In this document: positions 28,087 to 45,428 of the stretch, one piece after another
Layout: every line of letters starts with the position of its first letter
Numbering within the stretch: position 1 is the first letter of the stretch
From: [Muricauda] lutisoli (nom. illeg.)
GTDB lineage: Bacteria > Bacteroidota > Bacteroidia > Flavobacteriales > Flavobacteriaceae
Assembly: GCF_017313105.1 (NCBI RefSeq)
Contig: NZ_JAFLND010000004.1
Coordinates: forward strand, 62,001-126,000
Length of the DNA: 64,000 nucleotides
Direction: 5' to 3'
Made by a program: the position numbers and the translations under genes
Notes under the pieces: generated by a model
What the model saw: the letters and a program-made list of their open reading frames with translations, nothing else
Told to the model about the DNA's origin: nothing
Database searches by the model: none

Positions 28087-28091
28087 CAAAC

Positions 28092-28386
28092 AGCAGGCCA
28101 CCTTATCGCTGCAAGTAAGGGCAACCAAGCTTGAAGAGGAAAGTCCGGACACCACAGTGCGGCATAGCGGGTAACGCCCGTCCGCCGCAAGGCGAGGACC
28201 AGTGCAACAGAAAGCAAGTACAGTTCGGCTGTAGTGAAATCGGCAAACTCTATGCGGTGAAACGCCATGTAAACCAATGTTTGAGGGCTGCACGTCCGAG
28301 TTGGAGGGTAGGCGGTTGGAACACTTGGGCAACCATGTGTCTAGATAAATGATAAGGGTATACAGAATCCGGCTTATGGCCTGCTT
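28092..28386 (+). ncRNA. rnpB: RNase P RNA (catalytic RNA subunit)
   Basis: Catalytic RNA that removes the 5' leader of tRNA precursors. Ends are defined by the P1 helix: AGCAGGCC (28092-28099) pairs with GGCCTGCT (28378-28385). Conserved core blocks are present: GAGGAAAGTCCGGAC (28136-28150, CR-I/P4 side) and ACAGAAA (28207-28213). The CR-V/P4 3' side AGATAAATGATAAGG is at 28343-28357, and CAGAATCCGGCTTAT is at 28363-28377. The layout fits type A RNase P RNA of about 295 nt. P1 followed by TTTTATT may end transcription. The 3' end abuts the convergent rsmD stop with no spacer. Confidence 0.95.
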
Positions 28387-28926
28387 TTATTCAACTTCAA
28401 AGAAACTGAAAATACTTCCACCATACTTTCTTTGCTCCGAAAATTTTGGATGTTCCGAAAGATTGGTTTGGTCGGAATGTTCAATAATCAGTAGACCCTC
28501 TTCCAGTAATAGTTCTTTTTCAAAAACCAAATCGGCAATGTTGAGAAATTGTTCGGTGTCAAAATCATAAGGTGGGTCTGCGAAAATAAGATCGTATTTT
28601 TCAGTGGTTCGCTCTAAAAACTTAAAGACATCGGATTTTACGGTATTTATGGAAAAATCCAATTCTTCAGCAGTTTTTGAAATATAGCGAACGCACCCCT
28701 GAAACCCATCTACAGCAGTTATTTTTTCTGTTCCCCTGGATGCGAATTCAAAACTAATGTTACCGGTGCCCGAGAATAGGTCAAGAACTTTGAGTTCATC
28801 AAAATAGAACCGATTGTTCAGAATATTGAACAGTGCCTCTTTGGCCATATCCGTGGTTGGGCGAACAGGTAACTTTTTGGGGGCAGTTAGTCTTTTGCCC
28901 TTATATTTTCCGGATATGATACGCAT
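28387..28926 (-). CDS. rsmD: 16S rRNA (guanine966-N2)-methyltransferase RsmD
   Basis: SAM-dependent Rossmann methyltransferase that makes m2G966 in 16S rRNA. 179 residues. The protein begins MRIISGKYKGKRLTAPK with the TTDMAKEALFNIL segment typical of RsmD. SAM-binding motif I is VLDLFSGTGNISFEFASRG (about 50), and the catalytic motif is FADPPYDFD (about 118). It lies directly downstream of the DUF3822 gene (the stop at 28927 abuts the ATG at 28926), and its 3' end meets rnpB. Confidence 0.95.
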   Translation of the reverse strand: MRIISGKYKGKRLTAPKKLPVRPTTDMAKEALFNILNNRFYFDELKVLDLFSGTGNISFEFASRGTEKITAVDGFQGCVRYISKTAEELDFSINTVKSDVFKFLERTTEKYDLIFADPPYDFDTEQFLNIADLVFEKELLLEEGLLIIEHSDQTNLSEHPKFSEQRKYGGSIFSFFEVE

Positions 28927-38940: not shown

Positions 38941-40557
38941 ATGTCAAAATTAACCGTTAGCCTCTTATCGATTTTATTTCTCGCTACAATGGCGATATCA
39001 CAGGATTTGCCCACCGATTATTTGCCTGCCGATTTCCATAAGGAAAGAAGGGATGCCGTGAGGGAGAAATTACCCCCCAAAACCGCAGTGGTGCTTTTCG
39101 CCAATGCGGAACGAAATCGGTCAAATGATGTTGACTATGTGTATCATCAAGATCCTAATTTTTATTATTTGACGGGTTATAAAGAGCCCAATGCGGTATT
39201 GATCATTTTTTCGGAAGAGCAGACAGATGCCTCAGGAAACACTTTCGATGAGATTTTTTACGTTCAGGAAAGGGATGCAAGAGCAGAGCAATGGACCGGT
39301 AAGCGATTGGGAGTTAAAGGGGTTAAGGATAAATTGGGCTTCAAAACCGTATATAATGGCAGTGAGTTCGAAAACTTTCCGTTGGATTTCACTTCATTTG
39401 ACAATGTATCCTTTGTGGATTTTCATAACGATTACAGGGATAAATCAGGCAAGGCAGATTTGTTTGATTTGATTAAGACATTTAAGATAAAGGCCAACTA
39501 TCCTGCGGATTATAATCCTGTCCGAAACAGTCTTTACAGTAGAATATCCTCTGCCAATTCGCAAAACAGCAATGATGTTGTGGCCACCATTGAGCGCTAT
39601 CTGGAACGTTATCCAGAGTTGCAGGACGATGATATATTAAATGATTTTGTAGCGGCCAACAATGACGAGATACGATATGAAATCAAAAACCAGGTACTCG
39701 TAATTCAACGTTCCAATAATTTGGATTCCAGTATTCTGCCAAAGGTGATGGCGGAATTGCGCCAAGATAAAACCCCGGAGGAAATGAAACTGTTGAAGAA
39801 AGCCATTGAAATCTCAGCAGTTGGTCAAATAGAGGTCATGAAAGCCATGCACCCCAATATGTCCGAAACTGAAATACAAGGGGTGCACGAATATGTATAT
39901 AAAAGATATGGAGCCGAGTACGAGGGCTATCCATCCATAGTGGGCGGAGGGCATAATGGTTGCATACTTCACTACATTGAAAACAACAAGACCAAAGTGG
40001 GCGATGATTTGGTGCTGATGGACTTGGGGGCGGAGTACCATGGGTATACAGCCGATGTAACCAGGACCATACCTGCCAATGGGAAATTCTCGCCAGAGCA
40101 AAAAGCCATTTACGATATCGTATACAACGCCCAGGAAGCTGGGATTGCCGCAAGTGTGGTCGGGGCTTCTTTCCGGGAGCCACACAAGGCGGCATACGAT
40201 GTGGTTGCCAAAGGATTAAAGGATTTGGGCATTATTAAAGATTCCAAAGAGGCCAGAACCTATTTTCCGCACGGTACTTCACACTATTTAGGGTTGGATG
40301 TGCACGATGCGGGTACTTATCAAGCATTCAAACCCAATCAGGTAATTACCGTAGAACCTGGTATTTATATCCCAGAAAACAGTGATTGCGATGAAAAATG
40401 GTGGGGCATTGCCGTTAGGATCGAGGATGATATCTTGATTACCGAGGATGGGCCCGTAAACCTTTCAGGATTGGCACCGCGGACTACCGAAGCCATTGAG
40501 GAGGTAATGAAGCAACCCAGTCCCTTGGACAGTTTTAAACTGCCCAAGTTGGATTAA
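38941..40557 (+). CDS. pepP: Secreted Xaa-Pro aminopeptidase (aminopeptidase P, M24B)
   Basis: Removes an N-terminal residue next to proline. From the ATG at 38941 (the open frame begins earlier at 38866) the protein has 538 residues with a signal peptide (MSKLTVSLLSILFLATMAIS, cut before QDLP). An N-terminal creatinase-like domain (about 25-170) precedes the M24 metallo-domain. Dimetal ligands are two Asp in LMDLGAEYHGYTADVTRTI, His in HGTSHYLGLDVHD, and Glu in TVEPGIYIPE and AVRIEDDIL. Export points to a role in periplasmic or external peptide use. The gene ends with a 4-nt overlap of the convergent thrC. Confidence 0.95.
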   Translation: MSKLTVSLLSILFLATMAISQDLPTDYLPADFHKERRDAVREKLPPKTAVVLFANAERNRSNDVDYVYHQDPNFYYLTGYKEPNAVLIIFSEEQTDASGNTFDEIFYVQERDARAEQWTGKRLGVKGVKDKLGFKTVYNGSEFENFPLDFTSFDNVSFVDFHNDYRDKSGKADLFDLIKTFKIKANYPADYNPVRNSLYSRISSANSQNSNDVVATIERYLERYPELQDDDILNDFVAANNDEIRYEIKNQVLVIQRSNNLDSSILPKVMAELRQDKTPEEMKLLKKAIEISAVGQIEVMKAMHPNMSETEIQGVHEYVYKRYGAEYEGYPSIVGGGHNGCILHYIENNKTKVGDDLVLMDLGAEYHGYTADVTRTIPANGKFSPEQKAIYDIVYNAQEAGIAASVVGASFREPHKAAYDVVAKGLKDLGIIKDSKEARTYFPHGTSHYLGLDVHDAGTYQAFKPNQVITVEPGIYIPENSDCDEKWWGIAVRIEDDILITEDGPVNLSGLAPRTTEAIEEVMKQPSPLDSFKLPKLD

Positions 40558-41849
40558 TCGTTCAGGAGGAATTGCTTTAATTCTTCATAAGTGGCAATGT
40601 TATGTGATTTTTTGTCTTTGTCCATAACCTTCATAATCTGAGGAGGAATTTTTGGGCTAACCTCCAAGGTTTCCTCCACCACATCCAAAAATTTGACGGG
40701 GTGCGCCGTTTCCAAGAAAATACCATAGGTGTCGAGATGGGATTTTTGATATTCTTTTAGTCCCAAATATCCTACGGCACCATGTGGGTCCATAACATAG
40801 CCTGTTTTGGAATACACCTCTTTCATGATTGCCTTAGTGGCATCATCCGTAAACGAGTAGGAGGACAGGCTTTCCTGTAGTTTTTCCAAATTATCTTGGT
40901 ACAAATGCCTGATGCGGACAAAATTACTGGGATCACCTACGTCCATAGCATTGGATATGGTCGCGATGGAAGGCGTGGGTTCGTACACACCATTTTCCAT
41001 GAACTTGGGTACTACGTCATTTACATTGGTAGAGGCCACAAAATGTTTGACCGGCATTCCCAATTTTTGTGCCACCATTCCGGCACAGACATTTCCAAAA
41101 TTTCCTGATGGCACGGAAAAGACAATTTCCTTTCCCTTAGATTTAGCCTGTTTATAAGCAAACAAAAAGTAGAACAGTTGTGGCAGCCATCTGGCTACGT
41201 TGATACTATTGGCCGAGGTCAATTTTTTATGGTCCGTGATATCGGTGTCCAGAAAAGCGGTCTTGACCATACGCTGGCAGTCATCAAAAACACCATCCAC
41301 TTCCATGGCCTCAATGTTTTGACCCAAGGTAGTCAATTGTTTTTCTTGTATCTCGCTTACTTTTCCGCTAGGGTAGAGAATGACCACTTTTACACCATCG
41401 ACCCCTAAAAAGCCATTGGCCACGGCACCTCCAGTATCTCCCGAAGTGGCTACGAGAACTGTTACATCTTGTTTTTCTCCCTGTGAGAAGTAACCGAGGC
41501 AGTTGGCCATAAAGCGAGCGCCAACATCTTTAAAAGCCATGGTTGGACCATGAAAAAGTTCCAATGCCCCCACATTTCCCTCAATATCGACCACTGGGAA
41601 ATCAAAATCCAAGGTGTTCGCGATGATCACTTTCAATGCATCGTCGGGAATGTCTTCCATTACAAATTGATGAATGGCCCGAAAGGCTATTTCCGGATCG
41701 GACAACTCTTCGATGTGTTCAAAAAAATCAGCAGGAAGAGGTGTAATGCTCTCTGGAAAATAAAGCCCCTTGTCCGGAGCGATTCCAGCAATGACGGCCT
41801 CTTTGAACGAAGCCTGTATATTTTGATTGTTTAGACTATAGAATTTCAT
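40554..41849 (-). CDS. thrC: Threonine synthase
   Basis: PLP enzyme that turns O-phosphohomoserine into threonine. 431 residues. The PLP lysine is in GPTMAFKDVGARFM (about 100-113), with the phosphate-binding SGDTGGAV and the SVPSGNFGNV motif. Last gene of thrA-thrB-thrC; the gap to thrB is 3 nt. It converges on the aminopeptidase P gene. Confidence 0.97.
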   Translation of the reverse strand: MKFYSLNNQNIQASFKEAVIAGIAPDKGLYFPESITPLPADFFEHIEELSDPEIAFRAIHQFVMEDIPDDALKVIIANTLDFDFPVVDIEGNVGALELFHGPTMAFKDVGARFMANCLGYFSQGEKQDVTVLVATSGDTGGAVANGFLGVDGVKVVILYPSGKVSEIQEKQLTTLGQNIEAMEVDGVFDDCQRMVKTAFLDTDITDHKKLTSANSINVARWLPQLFYFLFAYKQAKSKGKEIVFSVPSGNFGNVCAGMVAQKLGMPVKHFVASTNVNDVVPKFMENGVYEPTPSIATISNAMDVGDPSNFVRIRHLYQDNLEKLQESLSSYSFTDDATKAIMKEVYSKTGYVMDPHGAVGYLGLKEYQKSHLDTYGIFLETAHPVKFLDVVEETLEVSPKIPPQIMKVMDKDKKSHNIATYEELKQFLLND

Positions 41850-41852
41850 GGA

Positions 41853-42776
41853 TCAAGCAATTTTCTTTACGCCTTGGCTGTTTACTTTGGAAATATGGAT
41901 ATCGAAATCCACTCCAATATTTTGATAGGTGTTTTTCATGGACTCCGCCACCTTTTTGGCGGTATCCTCGCCTTTGCTCAAGGCAAAAATCGAAGGTCCC
42001 GACCCTGAAATTCCACTTCCCAAAGCACCTGCTTTTAAAGCATTGGCCTTAATATCGTCAAATGCTGGAATTAAAATGGAACGGATAGGCTCAACTATAT
42101 AATCGTGCAAAGAGCGTCCGATAAGATCGTAATCATTTTGGAAAAGTCCTGCGACCAATCCGCCCAGGTTGCCCCACTGTTGGATGCCCTGTTGCATGGA
42201 AATCGTGGTTTTTAAAATTTTTCGGGAGTCCGAGGTTTTGATCTCGATCTGTGGATGGATTACCGTTGCATACAATTCCGATGGCGTCGGTATCGGGATA
42301 ATGTCCAGAGGTTCGTAACTACGGACTAAAGTGAATCCTCCGTAAATGGCAGGGGCAACATTATCGGCATGGGCCACATCGCTGGCCAGTTTTTCCCCTT
42401 GCATGGCAAATTCCACCAGTTCCAACTTGGAAAAGGGCTTGCCCAATAATTCGTTCATGGCCCAAACAGCCCCTGTGGAACTTGCAGCACTGCTACCAAT
42501 GCCACTACCGGGCTTTATGCGTTTGTCTATTTCAATTTCAAAACCACCTTCATAATCACTCTTTTCCAATAGGGCCAAACCCGCTACACCGGCCACATTG
42601 TTTTCCGTTTCTAGCGGAAGTTTCTGGCCAATTATTTTGGTGATGTGAATCCCTTTGTCGGAAGTTTTGCGAACTGTCATTTGATCTCCTACCGAATCCA
42701 GTGCCAATCCAAGTACATCAAATCCGCAGGAGACATTGGCTATGGTTGCCGGGCAAAATACTTTAATTTCCTCCAT
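41853..42776 (-). CDS. thrB: Homoserine kinase
   Basis: GHMP-family kinase that phosphorylates homoserine. 307 residues. The ATP loop is RIKPGSGIGSSAASSTGAVWAMN (about 85-107), and the C-terminal motif is GALGSGISGSGPSIFAL. It is placed between thrA (3-nt gap) and thrC (3-nt gap) in the order thrA-thrB-thrC, as in E. coli. Confidence 0.97.
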   Translation of the reverse strand: MEEIKVFCPATIANVSCGFDVLGLALDSVGDQMTVRKTSDKGIHITKIIGQKLPLETENNVAGVAGLALLEKSDYEGGFEIEIDKRIKPGSGIGSSAASSTGAVWAMNELLGKPFSKLELVEFAMQGEKLASDVAHADNVAPAIYGGFTLVRSYEPLDIIPIPTPSELYATVIHPQIEIKTSDSRKILKTTISMQQGIQQWGNLGGLVAGLFQNDYDLIGRSLHDYIVEPIRSILIPAFDDIKANALKAGALGSGISGSGPSIFALSKGEDTAKKVAESMKNTYQNIGVDFDIHISKVNSQGVKKIA

Positions 42777-42779
42777 CCC

Positions 42780-45224
42780 TTAAAAATTTCCGATTCGAAC
42801 GATATCCGCAAAGATACCCGATGCGGTAACATCGGCTCCTGCTCCGGCACCTTTTATGATCAAGGGCTGGTCAACATAACGGTCCGTAAAGAACAGCACA
42901 ATGTTGTCACTTCCCTCCAAATTGTAAAAATCGTGTCCTTTTGGTATTTGTTGTAGGCCTACTTTGGCCTTTCCATCTTCGAACTGTGCGACATATTTTA
43001 GTTTGCTATCCGCTTCTGCAGCATCTTTGTACAATTTTTGAAAGTCAGCCTCATATTTCTTCAGGCTTTCAAAAAATGCTTCGTTGGAGTCGGTCTCCAA
43101 GCTTTCCTTGGGTAGGAATGCCTCGTTTTCGATATCCTCAATATCCAATTGATAACCGCTCTCCCTGGCCAAAATAAGAATCTTTCGCATCACGTCCACT
43201 CCGCTGAGGTCAATAGTGGGATCAGGTTCGGTGTAGCCTTCTTCCTGAGCCTGTTTCACCACATCGTGAAAGGTAGTGGAATCATCAAACGTATTGAAGA
43301 CAAAATTCAAGCTACCGGATAGCACCGCCTGTATTTTTCTCACCTTGTCCCCCGAGGCGATGAGATGTTTTAAGGTATCGATAATAGGGAGTCCAGCGCC
43401 CACATTGGTCTCGAATAAATAAGGTGCATTGTATTGCTTTGCCAATTGTTTCAATTCCTTGTAGTATTCATAATCCGAAGAGGATGCAATTTTATTGCAG
43501 GTGACCACGGATATACTATTCTTTAGATAGCTCGAATAACTTTTGGAAACTTCTGCACTGGCCGTATTGTCCACAAAAATACTATTGCGATAGTTCAGTG
43601 AGTTGATGCGGTCAAAAAATACTTCTTTGTCCGCCGGTTCACCAGAATCCAAGATGTTTTCCCAATCTTTAAGGGAAATTCCATTTTCATCAAAGGCCAT
43701 TTTTCTTGAATTACTGATGCCGATAACACGAACGTTGAGCTTTAGCTCTTCCTTTAAATATTTTTTCTGTTGACGGATTTGCTGCAAGAATTTGGAACCT
43801 ACATTGCCTACGCCCATCACGAATAGGTTGAGCTGTTTGATGTTCTCCTCGAAAAAAGTCTCGTGCAACGAGTTCAGGGCTTTTTTCACATCTTCCTTTT
43901 TGATGACGGCCGAAATGTTACGTTCGGATGCCCCCTGGGCGATGGCTCTTATATTCACGTTGTTTTTACCAAGTGTGCTGAACATTTTACCGCTAAGACC
44001 TTGATGACTTTTCATATTGTCCCCGACCAACGCAACAATGGTAAGGTCTTTTTCAACAATGACGGGTTTGATCTTATTCCTTGAAATCTCGAATTCAAAG
44101 GTCTCGTTCACTGCCTCGGCCGCCAAATCCACATCTTCATCGGCAATACCCACACAAATGGAATGCTCTGAAGATGCTTGGGTGATCAAAACAATACTGA
44201 TGTTCTTGACCGAAAGCGTTTCAAAAAAGCGCTTGGATATTCCAGGGATACCTATCATGCCCGGCCCTTCCAGTGAAAGTAGACTAATATTGCCTACATG
44301 GCTGATGCCGCGAACTGTTTTTCCATTTCCGTTATTGTTCTTAGCAATCAAAGTGCCCGGGTTTTCAGGGTCGAAGGTGTTTTTAATAGCGATCGGGATC
44401 GCTTTGCCCAATACGGGTTGAATGGTTGGCGGATATAGTACTTTGGCTCCAAAATGGGAAAGTTCCATAGCTTCTTGGTAGCTGATATGGGATACGCATT
44501 TGGCCTGTTTCACCAATTTTGGATTAGCCGTGTACATGCCGCTAACGTCGGTCCAAATCTCAAGAATATCCGCATCTATGGCAGCTGCGATTATGGCGGC
44601 GGTATAATCCGAACCTCCTCTGCCCAAGGTGGTCAAATCTCCACTCTTACTGGAGGCAACGAATCCTGGTAAAATTGTTATTTGTTTTTTTGTGGATGAA
44701 AAATAGGTTTCACAATTTGCATTGGAAATGTTGAAATCTACATTGGCCTTACCAAAATTGTTGTCGGTTTTAATGAGTTCCCTGCTATCTTTATAGACAA
44801 CGTCCAAACCTTCGGATTTTAGGAATTCGCTGATGATGAAGGAAGATAACAGCTCGCCATAGCTTACAATTTTGTCGGATAGTTTGGGAGTCAGCTCACC
44901 AATCAGAAAAGCACCCTCCAGCAAGGTCTCCAAAATATTGAGTTCACTTTTCACCTTGCTCAGTGCCGTACTTTGTGAGGTGACGGGAATCAATTCCCTA
45001 ATGGCGGAAATATGTTTGTCCTCGACTTCCTTGAGGCTGTTTTTGTAGCTTACATCTTGCTCGGATGCCGAACGGGACGCGTTAAGAAGCAGGTCTGTTA
45101 CACCTCCAAAGGCCGATACGACCACAGCTATTTGGTCATTTTTTTGATTGGCAAGGATGGATTTGACCTTATTTATATTTTCTGGATTGGCCACCGAAGT
45201 GCCTCCAAATTTTAAGACTTTCAT
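42780..45224 (-). CDS. thrA: Bifunctional aspartate kinase / homoserine dehydrogenase
   Basis: Two enzymes of threonine synthesis in one chain: an N-terminal aspartate kinase and a C-terminal homoserine dehydrogenase. 814 residues, the same plan and size as E. coli ThrA (820). Aspartate kinase opens with KVLKFGGTSVANPENI and holds LTTLGRGGSDYTAA. ACT-type regulatory domains lie at about 305-455, including LVGDNMKSHQGLSGKMF. Homoserine dehydrogenase starts with LFVMGVGNVGSKFLQQI (about 464) and holds EGYTEPDPTIDLSGVDVMRKILILARESG. The operon is preceded by a threonine-rich leader peptide (45290-45343), which suggests that supply is sensed at the tRNA-Thr level. Feedback by threonine through ACT is expected from the family but is not shown here. 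Confidence 0.97.
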   Translation of the reverse strand: MKVLKFGGTSVANPENINKVKSILANQKNDQIAVVVSAFGGVTDLLLNASRSASEQDVSYKNSLKEVEDKHISAIRELIPVTSQSTALSKVKSELNILETLLEGAFLIGELTPKLSDKIVSYGELLSSFIISEFLKSEGLDVVYKDSRELIKTDNNFGKANVDFNISNANCETYFSSTKKQITILPGFVASSKSGDLTTLGRGGSDYTAAIIAAAIDADILEIWTDVSGMYTANPKLVKQAKCVSHISYQEAMELSHFGAKVLYPPTIQPVLGKAIPIAIKNTFDPENPGTLIAKNNNGNGKTVRGISHVGNISLLSLEGPGMIGIPGISKRFFETLSVKNISIVLITQASSEHSICVGIADEDVDLAAEAVNETFEFEISRNKIKPVIVEKDLTIVALVGDNMKSHQGLSGKMFSTLGKNNVNIRAIAQGASERNISAVIKKEDVKKALNSLHETFFEENIKQLNLFVMGVGNVGSKFLQQIRQQKKYLKEELKLNVRVIGISNSRKMAFDENGISLKDWENILDSGEPADKEVFFDRINSLNYRNSIFVDNTASAEVSKSYSSYLKNSISVVTCNKIASSSDYEYYKELKQLAKQYNAPYLFETNVGAGLPIIDTLKHLIASGDKVRKIQAVLSGSLNFVFNTFDDSTTFHDVVKQAQEEGYTEPDPTIDLSGVDVMRKILILARESGYQLDIEDIENEAFLPKESLETDSNEAFFESLKKYEADFQKLYKDAAEADSKLKYVAQFEDGKAKVGLQQIPKGHDFYNLEGSDNIVLFFTDRYVDQPLIIKGAGAGADVTASGIFADIVRIGNF

Positions 45225-45244: not shown

Positions 45245-45276
45245 AATTCTAAATAGATTGAAAAACGGACGGAATT
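45245..45276 (-). promoter_or_regulatory. Weak hairpin and T-run before thrA, possible attenuator end
   Basis: On the minus strand AATTC (45276-45272) and GAATT (45249-45245) can pair around 22 nt and run into seven T in total. The stem is weak and AT-rich, so a terminator role is doubtful. A second possible pairing joins AAACGGA (45366-45360, before the leader ORF) with TCCGTTT (45269-45263, after it). Confidence 0.25.
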
Positions 45277-45289
45277 ATATATAGCAGAC

Positions 45290-45343
45290 TTACCCCAAAG
45301 GGGTGGTAGTGGTAATAGTGAAGGTAGATGAAAAAGGATTCAT
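45290..45343 (-). CDS. Threonine-rich leader peptide of the thrABC operon (thrL-like)
   Basis: A 17-residue ORF (ATG 45343, TAA ending at 45290) encoding MNPFSSTFTITTTTPLG. It lies 65 nt before thrA in the same direction. Six of 17 residues are Thr (residues 7, 9, 11-14) and one is Ile, the same amino-acid bias as the E. coli thrL peptide. A promoter-like pair of boxes sits 54-85 nt upstream of its ATG. Its last codons form the arm of a small ACCCC-TTT-GGGGT hairpin (45291-45303). No strong terminator is seen between it and thrA, so the mechanism of control is not settled. It was found by reading the intergenic region and is too short for ordinary gene finders. Confidence 0.75.
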   Translation of the reverse strand: MNPFSSTFTITTTTPLG

Positions 45344-45382
45344 CAAATTAAGGTTACTATCCGTTTGTTTTAACTTCATTGC

Positions 45383-45414
45383 TCTGTAATGAGGTGATAA
45401 ATGTAGTACTTTTG
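45383..45414 (+). promoter_or_regulatory. Candidate promoter of nnr (TCTG-N20-TACTTTTG)
   Basis: TACTTTTG (45407-45414) is a perfect -7 box, and TCTG (45383-45386) lies 20 nt upstream as a 3/4 -33. It overlaps the divergent thr promoter at 45398-45428. Confidence 0.55.
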
Positions 45415-45428
45415 TGTACTTCATCAAA
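45398..45428 (-). promoter_or_regulatory. Promoter of the thr leader and operon (TTTG-N19-TACATTTA)
   Basis: On the minus strand TTTG (45428-45425) and TACATTTA (45405-45398) are separated by 19 nt; the -7 has one mismatch (final A for G). The predicted start is about 48 nt before the leader ATG. Confidence 0.6.

Follow-up and report, generated by a model that had tools for sequence, protein, structure and literature searches.

Organization of the thrABC Locus

The window, i.e., the whole 64,000-nt stretch that was analyzed, contains the genes thrA, thrB and thrC on its minus strand. The gene thrA (42780–45224) was identified as encoding bifunctional aspartate kinase/homoserine dehydrogenase I by an NCBIfam equivalog above its cut-off, and NCBIfam profile scores assigned the next genes, thrB (41853–42776) and thrC (40554–41849), to homoserine kinase and threonine synthase. 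The nearest ThrA proteins among named relatives belong to Allomuricauda, Muricauda and Flagellimonas (Flavobacteriaceae), with an identity of 99% for Allomuricauda profundi. A short co-directional ORF was found upstream of thrA. Translation of minus-strand positions 45343–45290 gave MNPFSSTFTITTTTPLG and a stop codon, i.e., 17 codons with six Thr, and the stop codon is located 65 nt from the start of thrA (45224). As for the original prediction, the ORF, its spacing and direction, the three genes and the motifs are present as it described them; its start codon and leader length are probably wrong, and one downstream stem that it mentioned is not conserved.

Two further ThrA-like genes were found in the genome. 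The 300 nt upstream of either match contain no apparent Thr run, and for one of them (L002, C3:515466–517868) these 300 nt are the interior of a longer frame. The ThrA-like stretch of L002 (40% identity) lies within an open frame of 1138 aa and is therefore probably fused to another domain. Elsewhere in the window, Rfam matched RNase P RNA of bacterial class A (28090–28391, plus strand).

The upstream region was compared with those of relatives. The genus sample included 51 of 71 genomes and, after one locus at a contig end (L025) was left out, comprised 50 leaders. The other-genus sample of the family comprised 128 loci, the best by ThrA identity among the matches listed, with a few entries skipped and some genera represented twice. 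Other families of the class contributed 23 + 35 loci. Three duplicates (L185, L186 and L189) were removed before most counts. The groups named g1, marine, PFGV, flavo and "other" were assigned by locus rank and not by a tree; the group "other" (14 loci) consists of 11 loci from outside the family and 3 from inside it.

Start Codon and Promoter of the Leader ORF

An in-frame ATG at 45379 lengthens the 17-codon ORF by 12 codons, so that the latter would be the 3' part of a leader ORF of 29 codons plus stop (45290–45379, minus strand; MKLKQTDSNLNLMNPFSSTFTITTTTPLG). Within the genus, the upstream ATG was present in 45/50 leaders, the inner ATG also in 45/50 and both in 44/50. Among the leaders of other genera, an ATG was located 20–45 codons before the stop codon in 82/88 and at 14–19 codons in 7/88. 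These positions, together with the promoter box ending 18 nt before the upstream ATG, make ATG 45379 the better candidate, and it is probably the true start, in place of the 17-codon extent proposed at first.

The box belongs to the sequence TTTG (45428–45425), a 19-nt spacer and TACATTTA (45405–45398) on the minus strand (45398–45428 in full), which is present as originally described and which, on consensus, we take to be a Bacteroidota-type promoter. Given the 18-nt distance from the box to ATG 45379, the untranslated 5' region would measure about 10–20 nt and not the 48 nt suggested previously. A TAnnTTTG motif was found 60–160 nt upstream of the stop-codon hairpin described below in 33/34 marine, 41/41 flavo and 14/50 genus leaders, and the genus members lacking it, as far as displayed, have TACATTTA or TACTTTTA in its place. 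Segment D, a downstream element considered in the section on long-range pairing, was rejected as a second promoter: TAnnTTTG between the hairpin and thrA occurred in 0/50 genus and 0/34 marine leaders. The same interval contained the motif in 15/41 flavo leaders, with 2.7 expected.

Conservation of the Threonine Codons

Loci were scored by a rule that asks for at least four Thr in the last 14 codons and for a CCC/GGG hairpin around the stop. This rule was passed by 44/50 genus leaders, 92/128 other-genus loci of the family, 3/3 further family loci and 7/23 loci outside the family. None of 2040 shuffled sequences, 204 reverse complements or 61 ilvD/hisG upstream regions passed. When the hairpin condition was dropped, 93 shuffles, 1 reverse complement and 2 ilvD/hisG upstream regions did, which indicates that the pair of Thr codons and hairpin carries the weight. 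The six genus leaders that failed have three Thr in the last 14 codons; the 36/128 other-genus failures include loci with a weaker hairpin, loci with a lower number of Thr codons and loci without any leader. Outside Flavobacteriaceae, the rule was failed by 16/23 loci, and of the 35 further loci from there, 14 have at least four Thr (7 with a hairpin under a looser rule) and 21 have fewer than four.

In the window, the regulatory run reads Thr-Phe-Thr-Ile-Thr-Thr-Thr-Thr (45302–45325, minus strand), and its last Thr codon is the start of the 5' arm of the hairpin. In the codon table of the 50 genus leaders, Thr was found at codons -5, -6, -7 and -9 in 40, 36, 36 and 44 leaders, respectively, written as ACC, ACT, ACA or ACG; the commonest other residue at codons -5 and -6 is Ile. 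Codons -4 to -1 (ACC CCT TTG GGG) are near-frozen in the genus, with ACC always at -4. This synonymous variation beside a frozen end indicates that Thr is kept in the form of codons and the last codons in the form of RNA. Over 154 leaders, Thr codons are densest at positions 0 to -5 relative to the hairpin, counted in codons. The 21-base pattern for Thr-Thr-Thr-Pro-Leu-Gly-stop occurs once in the genome.

The N-terminal half of the peptide varies, which speaks for a chance ORF or a small protein acting in trans. This explanation is disfavored and highly improbable, given that the controls gave zero, that it is the Thr codons and the hairpin which are conserved, and that the 29-aa peptide has no NCBIfam match. 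The family comparison had been proposed beforehand, with retained Thr codons and stop position and variation elsewhere as the supportive outcome, and this outcome was obtained. Judging from the aligned sequences, the short ORF is a real, conserved Thr-codon leader of thrABC.

The thr leaders of three Pricia loci (L373, L374 and L383) fall outside the ACCCC/GGGGT hairpin pattern, and those of L373 and L383 resemble decayed versions.

Stop-Codon Hairpin and Other Local Elements

The hairpin ACCCC-UUU-GGGGU (45292–45304, minus strand; -7.0 kcal/mol), hereafter H, overlaps the UAA codon. It had been noticed in the original prediction and proved to be conserved: a strict rule scored it as present in 154/208 regions. 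RNAalifold recovered H alone in three clade alignments. The stop codon is located in the 3' arm in 100 of these 154 leaders, just behind H in 45 and in the loop in 9. The C-terminus of the peptide varies across the class (TPLG, TPWG, TLWGC, TLRG, TPFGV, TP, TTR) while a short GC-rich hairpin persists, which argues for selection on the RNA. Base pairs were exchanged as well. At pair four, counted from the loop, 111 leaders have CG and 41 have AT; at pair six, CG, TA and AT all occur. GC takes the place of CG at the three inner pairs in 2–3 leaders, all outside Flavobacteriaceae. The 5' arm opens with a Thr codon in 145/154 leaders, so a ribosome waiting there and H would be mutually exclusive. 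The whole-leader fold of the window is not more stable than shuffles (z -0.59). Five loci outside the family (L210, L211, L278, L279 and L280) have an inverted hairpin, ACGGG...CCCGU, with the stop codon in its loop.

Two other elements were found near H. Behind it, CTATATAT (45277–45284, minus strand) was compared over the 154 leaders: a match resembling it or CACATAT starts 8–12 nt after the GGG of the hairpin in 94/154, and 27/154 have no match. In the middle of the ORF, the hairpin P1, GAUGAA-UCCUUU-UUCAUC (45327–45344, minus strand), was tested against codon shuffles and was supported in the genus (p 6.6e-10), flavo (6.2e-11), PFGV (8.5e-4) and "other" (4.3e-4) groups and not in the marine group (p 0.94). 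Its ATGAA..TTCAT arms are present in 34/50 genus leaders.

Search for an Intrinsic Terminator

The original prediction noted that no classical GC-rich terminator precedes thrA, and this was borne out for the thr leaders scored in the family. A scan from the stop codon at -8 kcal/mol found no intrinsic terminator in the genus thr leaders (0/50). Among the leaders of other genera, 12/91 had folds resembling a weak terminator (-8.4 to -13.5 kcal/mol), and ten of these folds begin in or before H. A scan with a different start, from behind H, found terminators in 0/25 genus leaders (half of the set), 1/34 marine, 1/13 PFGV, 1/41 flavo and 1/14 "other" leaders. In that scan, the group means equaled those of shuffles or were weaker, except in the group "other" (-3.34 versus -3.16), which contains L193. 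The weak AATTC/GAATT stem with a T-run, mentioned in the original prediction, was rejected as a terminator, being carried by 3/50 genus members.

The hisG and ilvD leaders of the same family served as controls. Among 31 hisG loci examined, His runs and terminators (-16.6 to -26.5) were present in 28/28 of those scored as leaders; His-run leaders were found in 27/30 hisG loci of the family other than that of the genome studied, whose own leader (L213, C1 near 1130529; MRNKNTHHHFYTCPQAR) has a classical terminator. Among 30 ilvD loci examined, a terminator was found in 20/27 of those scored as leaders, a loose calling by which some of the 27 are likely wrong. The ilvD leader of the same genome (L214, C1 near 926998; MKVNQQVIIEVTIIPKMG) has a stop-codon hairpin of the H type, and it is also predicted to form an antiterminator (-10.7) and a terminator (-21.4). 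This combination links H with attenuation. Ile/Val-rich ilvD leader counterparts of L214 were seen in several relatives.

Terminators were also found behind thr leaders elsewhere. Another Bacteroidia family, f41, has Thr/Ile leaders followed by terminators (-15.9 to -25.7 kcal/mol) that carry a T-run, a combination seen in 9/9 genomes (L281–L283, L285, L288–L290, L298 and L303); the antiterminator was computed for L281 alone (-17.4). A locus outside Flavobacteriaceae, L193, combines the hairpin with an antiterminator (-18.9) and a terminator (-25.3). The terminators of the family's hisG and ilvD leaders make their lack in the thr leaders meaningful and, together with those of f41 and L193, indicate that the Flavobacteriaceae thr leader departs from the arrangement surrounding it.

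An ordinary attenuator of the enterobacterial type whose terminator was overlooked by the scan is quite improbable. A similar scan did miss terminators in 7/27 ilvD loci scored as leaders, some perhaps mis-scored. However, none of the 50 genus leaders reached -8 kcal/mol, the mean of the 25 leaders of these 50 that were tested was weaker than that of shuffles, and no antiterminator (2:3) was found in the window, where the best pairing of region 2 with D has -4.8 kcal/mol against -10.7 in the genome's own ilvD leader, -17.4 in L281 and -18.9 in L193.

The lack of a strong intrinsic terminator would suit a post-transcriptional output, in which a stalled ribosome shields the thr mRNA from decay or changes the folding near thrA and no termination takes place; published passages on erm systems link stalled leader ribosomes to mRNA stability or translation. 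We consider this output unlikely: thrA begins 65 nt downstream of the leader, no specific pairing to the leader was seen for the windows tested in the late spacer, a region that reaches to the start of thrA, and the anatomy of the family's his and ilv leaders is that of leaders acting on transcription.

Long-Range Pairing and the Spacer

The original prediction also pointed to a long-range pairing of AAACGGA with TCCGTTT. Both segments are present. Segment A (AAACGGA; 45360–45366, minus strand) is located near the ORF start, and its ACGGA core was found in 42/50 genus leaders. Segment D (TTCCGTCCGTTTTT; 45261–45274, minus strand), able to pair with A in the tests below, contains TCCGTTT at 45269–45263, with TCCGT in 50/50. 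The strict motifs AAACGGA and TCCGTTT occur together in 27/50. Together with H, TCCGT forms an arrangement found at a single site in the genome, at thrA.

Shuffling of D weakened its pairing with A in the genus (p 3e-14) and marine (4e-5) groups, with p 0.09 in the flavo group. Against swapped partners, the A:D pairing was significant in the marine (p 0.005) and flavo (0.032) groups and not in the genus (0.17). Neither duplex test gave support in the PFGV and "other" groups. Two control windows also beat shuffles, namely M:D (genus, 0.005) and A:T (flavo, 0.036). With other window borders, the swap test was significant for A:D in the genus (0.025), marine (0.038) and flavo (0.012) groups and for no control window. 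In 23 further marine loci, a set from which three loci without the hairpin were excluded, p was 0.035 against shuffles and 0.09 against swaps; in about half of them, the best pairing is a stem like AACGGAC/GTCCGTT, GGACAAA/TTTGTCC or AACTGA/TCAGTT, in a register that is not uniform. An earlier duplex test with other windows on 78 other-genus leaders of the family gave p 0.03 for 5'-3' pairing and 2.5e-4 for 5'-mid pairing. A pairing signal of A with M in the flavo group (p 1.6e-8) is probably the P1 hairpin cut by a window border. Since kinship is incompletely controlled in these statistics, they lend the A:D pairing moderate support, with a scope confined to part of the family.

These results bear on a permuted attenuator, in which the terminator stem is split around the ORF: A would pair with D, with Us behind it, and a ribosome held on the intervening Thr codons, or queued over A, would prevent the pairing and let the polymerase pass. 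The excess over shuffled D in the genus and marine groups and over swaps in the latter, the significant swap tests with other borders in all three groups and the further marine loci speak for it. This arrangement is nevertheless rather unlikely, given the genus swap result with the first borders, the shuffle-beating controls M:D and A:T, the lack of support in PFGV and "other" and the incomplete control of kinship. Furthermore, D has no U-tract behind it in many relatives, and folding with the ribosome footprint masked still formed A:D, so that the two states were not separated.

The spacer from H to thrA is G-poor (G 6% and T 46% in the genus; G 6–11% over all groups). In the genus it is less structured than shuffles (mean z +1.29), with values of +0.35, +0.10, -0.18 and -0.41 in the other groups. 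A hairpin T located 22–64 nt after H was supported in the flavo group (p 2.4e-8) and weakly in the marine (0.007), PFGV (0.013) and "other" (0.03) groups, and is absent in the genus. In the flavo group (part of L088–L183), it is an AU-rich hairpin before thrA, e.g., GTAATTT...AAATTAC, whose arms have changed and still pair and which has no U-tract.

Proposed Mechanism

Several hallmarks of attenuators were found at the locus: a short co-directional upstream ORF with codon runs for the product of the operon, regulatory codons conserved across relatives, and a hairpin located where the leader ORF ends, whose overlap with the last Thr codon suggests exclusivity with a stalled ribosome. No intrinsic terminator was found between the leader and the first gene. 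We propose, with a probability of about 0.58, that the thrABC leader exerts Thr-sensing leader-peptide control, in which the stop-codon hairpin is the switch and the output is factor-dependent or linked to pausing. The proposal starts from what the sequence comparison shows, namely the ORF, its Thr codons, H, the constant distances between them and the lack of any strong intrinsic terminator.

According to this model, a ribosome would initiate on the leader near the 5' end of the RNA. With ample Thr-tRNA, it would pass the Thr codons, reach UAA and depart, and H would fold behind the RNA polymerase; formed after release, H would lower transcription into thrA and hence expression. When Thr-tRNA is scarce, the ribosome would halt on the Thr codons immediately before and inside the 5' arm and so block H. 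The output would be a step before thrA other than intrinsic termination, either linked to pausing or dependent on a factor. Rho acting on the G-poor spacer would be the most likely factor, as suggested by spacer composition, although the Thr codons themselves account for part of the low G content of the leader. Within the genus of the window and among the marine relatives, the A:D pairing probably shapes the output step. Several results weigh against the model: the weak folds in 12/91 other-genus leaders, the 36/128 other-genus loci and the majority of loci outside the family that fail the rule, the spacers of the other groups, whose structure is not clearly below that of shuffles, the hairpin T, which has support in those groups and is absent in the genus, and the recovery of H alone by RNAalifold.

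More tentatively, and with considerable doubt, the Flavobacteriaceae thr operons might represent a widespread terminator-free class of leader peptides in which a hairpin containing the stop codon of the leader itself acts as the switch, with one branch having a permuted terminating stem whose halves lie on either side of the ORF.

If the model is true, a widespread Thr sensor would be added to a phylum in which little of the amino-acid control has been mapped. One family would use one sensing principle with two outputs, namely intrinsic terminators for his and ilv and something else for thr. The system is suited to testing the control of transcription by a leader ribosome without an intrinsic terminator, with controls available within the genome. 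The analysis also fills a gap in the gene annotation and yields a motif that can be searched for.

Comparison with Known Systems

Published work on structured 5' regions of Flavobacterium psychrophilum (PMC9723704) reports "strong clues" of attenuation by leader peptides upstream of amino-acid operons and names conserved elements before pheA, hisG and other genes; its main text contains neither "thrA" nor "threonine". Passages of a work on B. thetaiotaomicron mention sORFs resembling leader peptides (PMC7366714), and leader genes near structural genes are counted in part of another (PMC4833913). No match for the taxa or thr terms was obtained in PMC2965389. No description of this thr leader was found in the literature searched; a prior mention is possible in the supplement of PMC9723704 or in the Lopatovskaya 2010 survey, both outside the scope of the search.

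A covariance-model search for Thr leaders had been suggested for this locus. At the gathering threshold, it matched no leader or riboswitch family of Rfam (Thr leader, T-box and others), and at E up to 5 it gave only three sub-threshold matches to snoRNA/sRNA families.

In E. coli, the Thr/Ile-rich leader peptide thrL is encoded directly upstream of thrABC on the same strand. The leader described here shares this composition and position, but no strong intrinsic terminator or antiterminator was found and its stop codon lies within a hairpin. Both elements were sought and neither was found, which places the leader outside the classical thrL-type family, while it probably works like an attenuation leader. 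The comparative data thus favor the original suggestion of a Thr leader peptide whose control differs from enterobacterial attenuation.

The hisG and ilvD leaders of the family likewise have a short ORF in which the regulated amino acid occurs in runs, and the genome's own ilvD leader shares the stop-codon hairpin; in contrast to the thr leader, they carry terminators (28/28 and 20/27), and the own ilvD leader has a predicted antiterminator as well. The f41 leader is similarly Thr/Ile-rich and precedes a ThrA homologue, but is followed by a terminator with a T-run in all nine genomes.

The leader peptide of tnaC acts in Rho-dependent control, in which the position of the leader ribosome decides on termination without an intrinsic terminator. 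The proposed likeness lies in this decision by ribosome position, with Rho as the presumed factor at thrABC. The signal proposed for the thrABC leader is codon starvation, unlike the nascent-chain arrest of tnaC.
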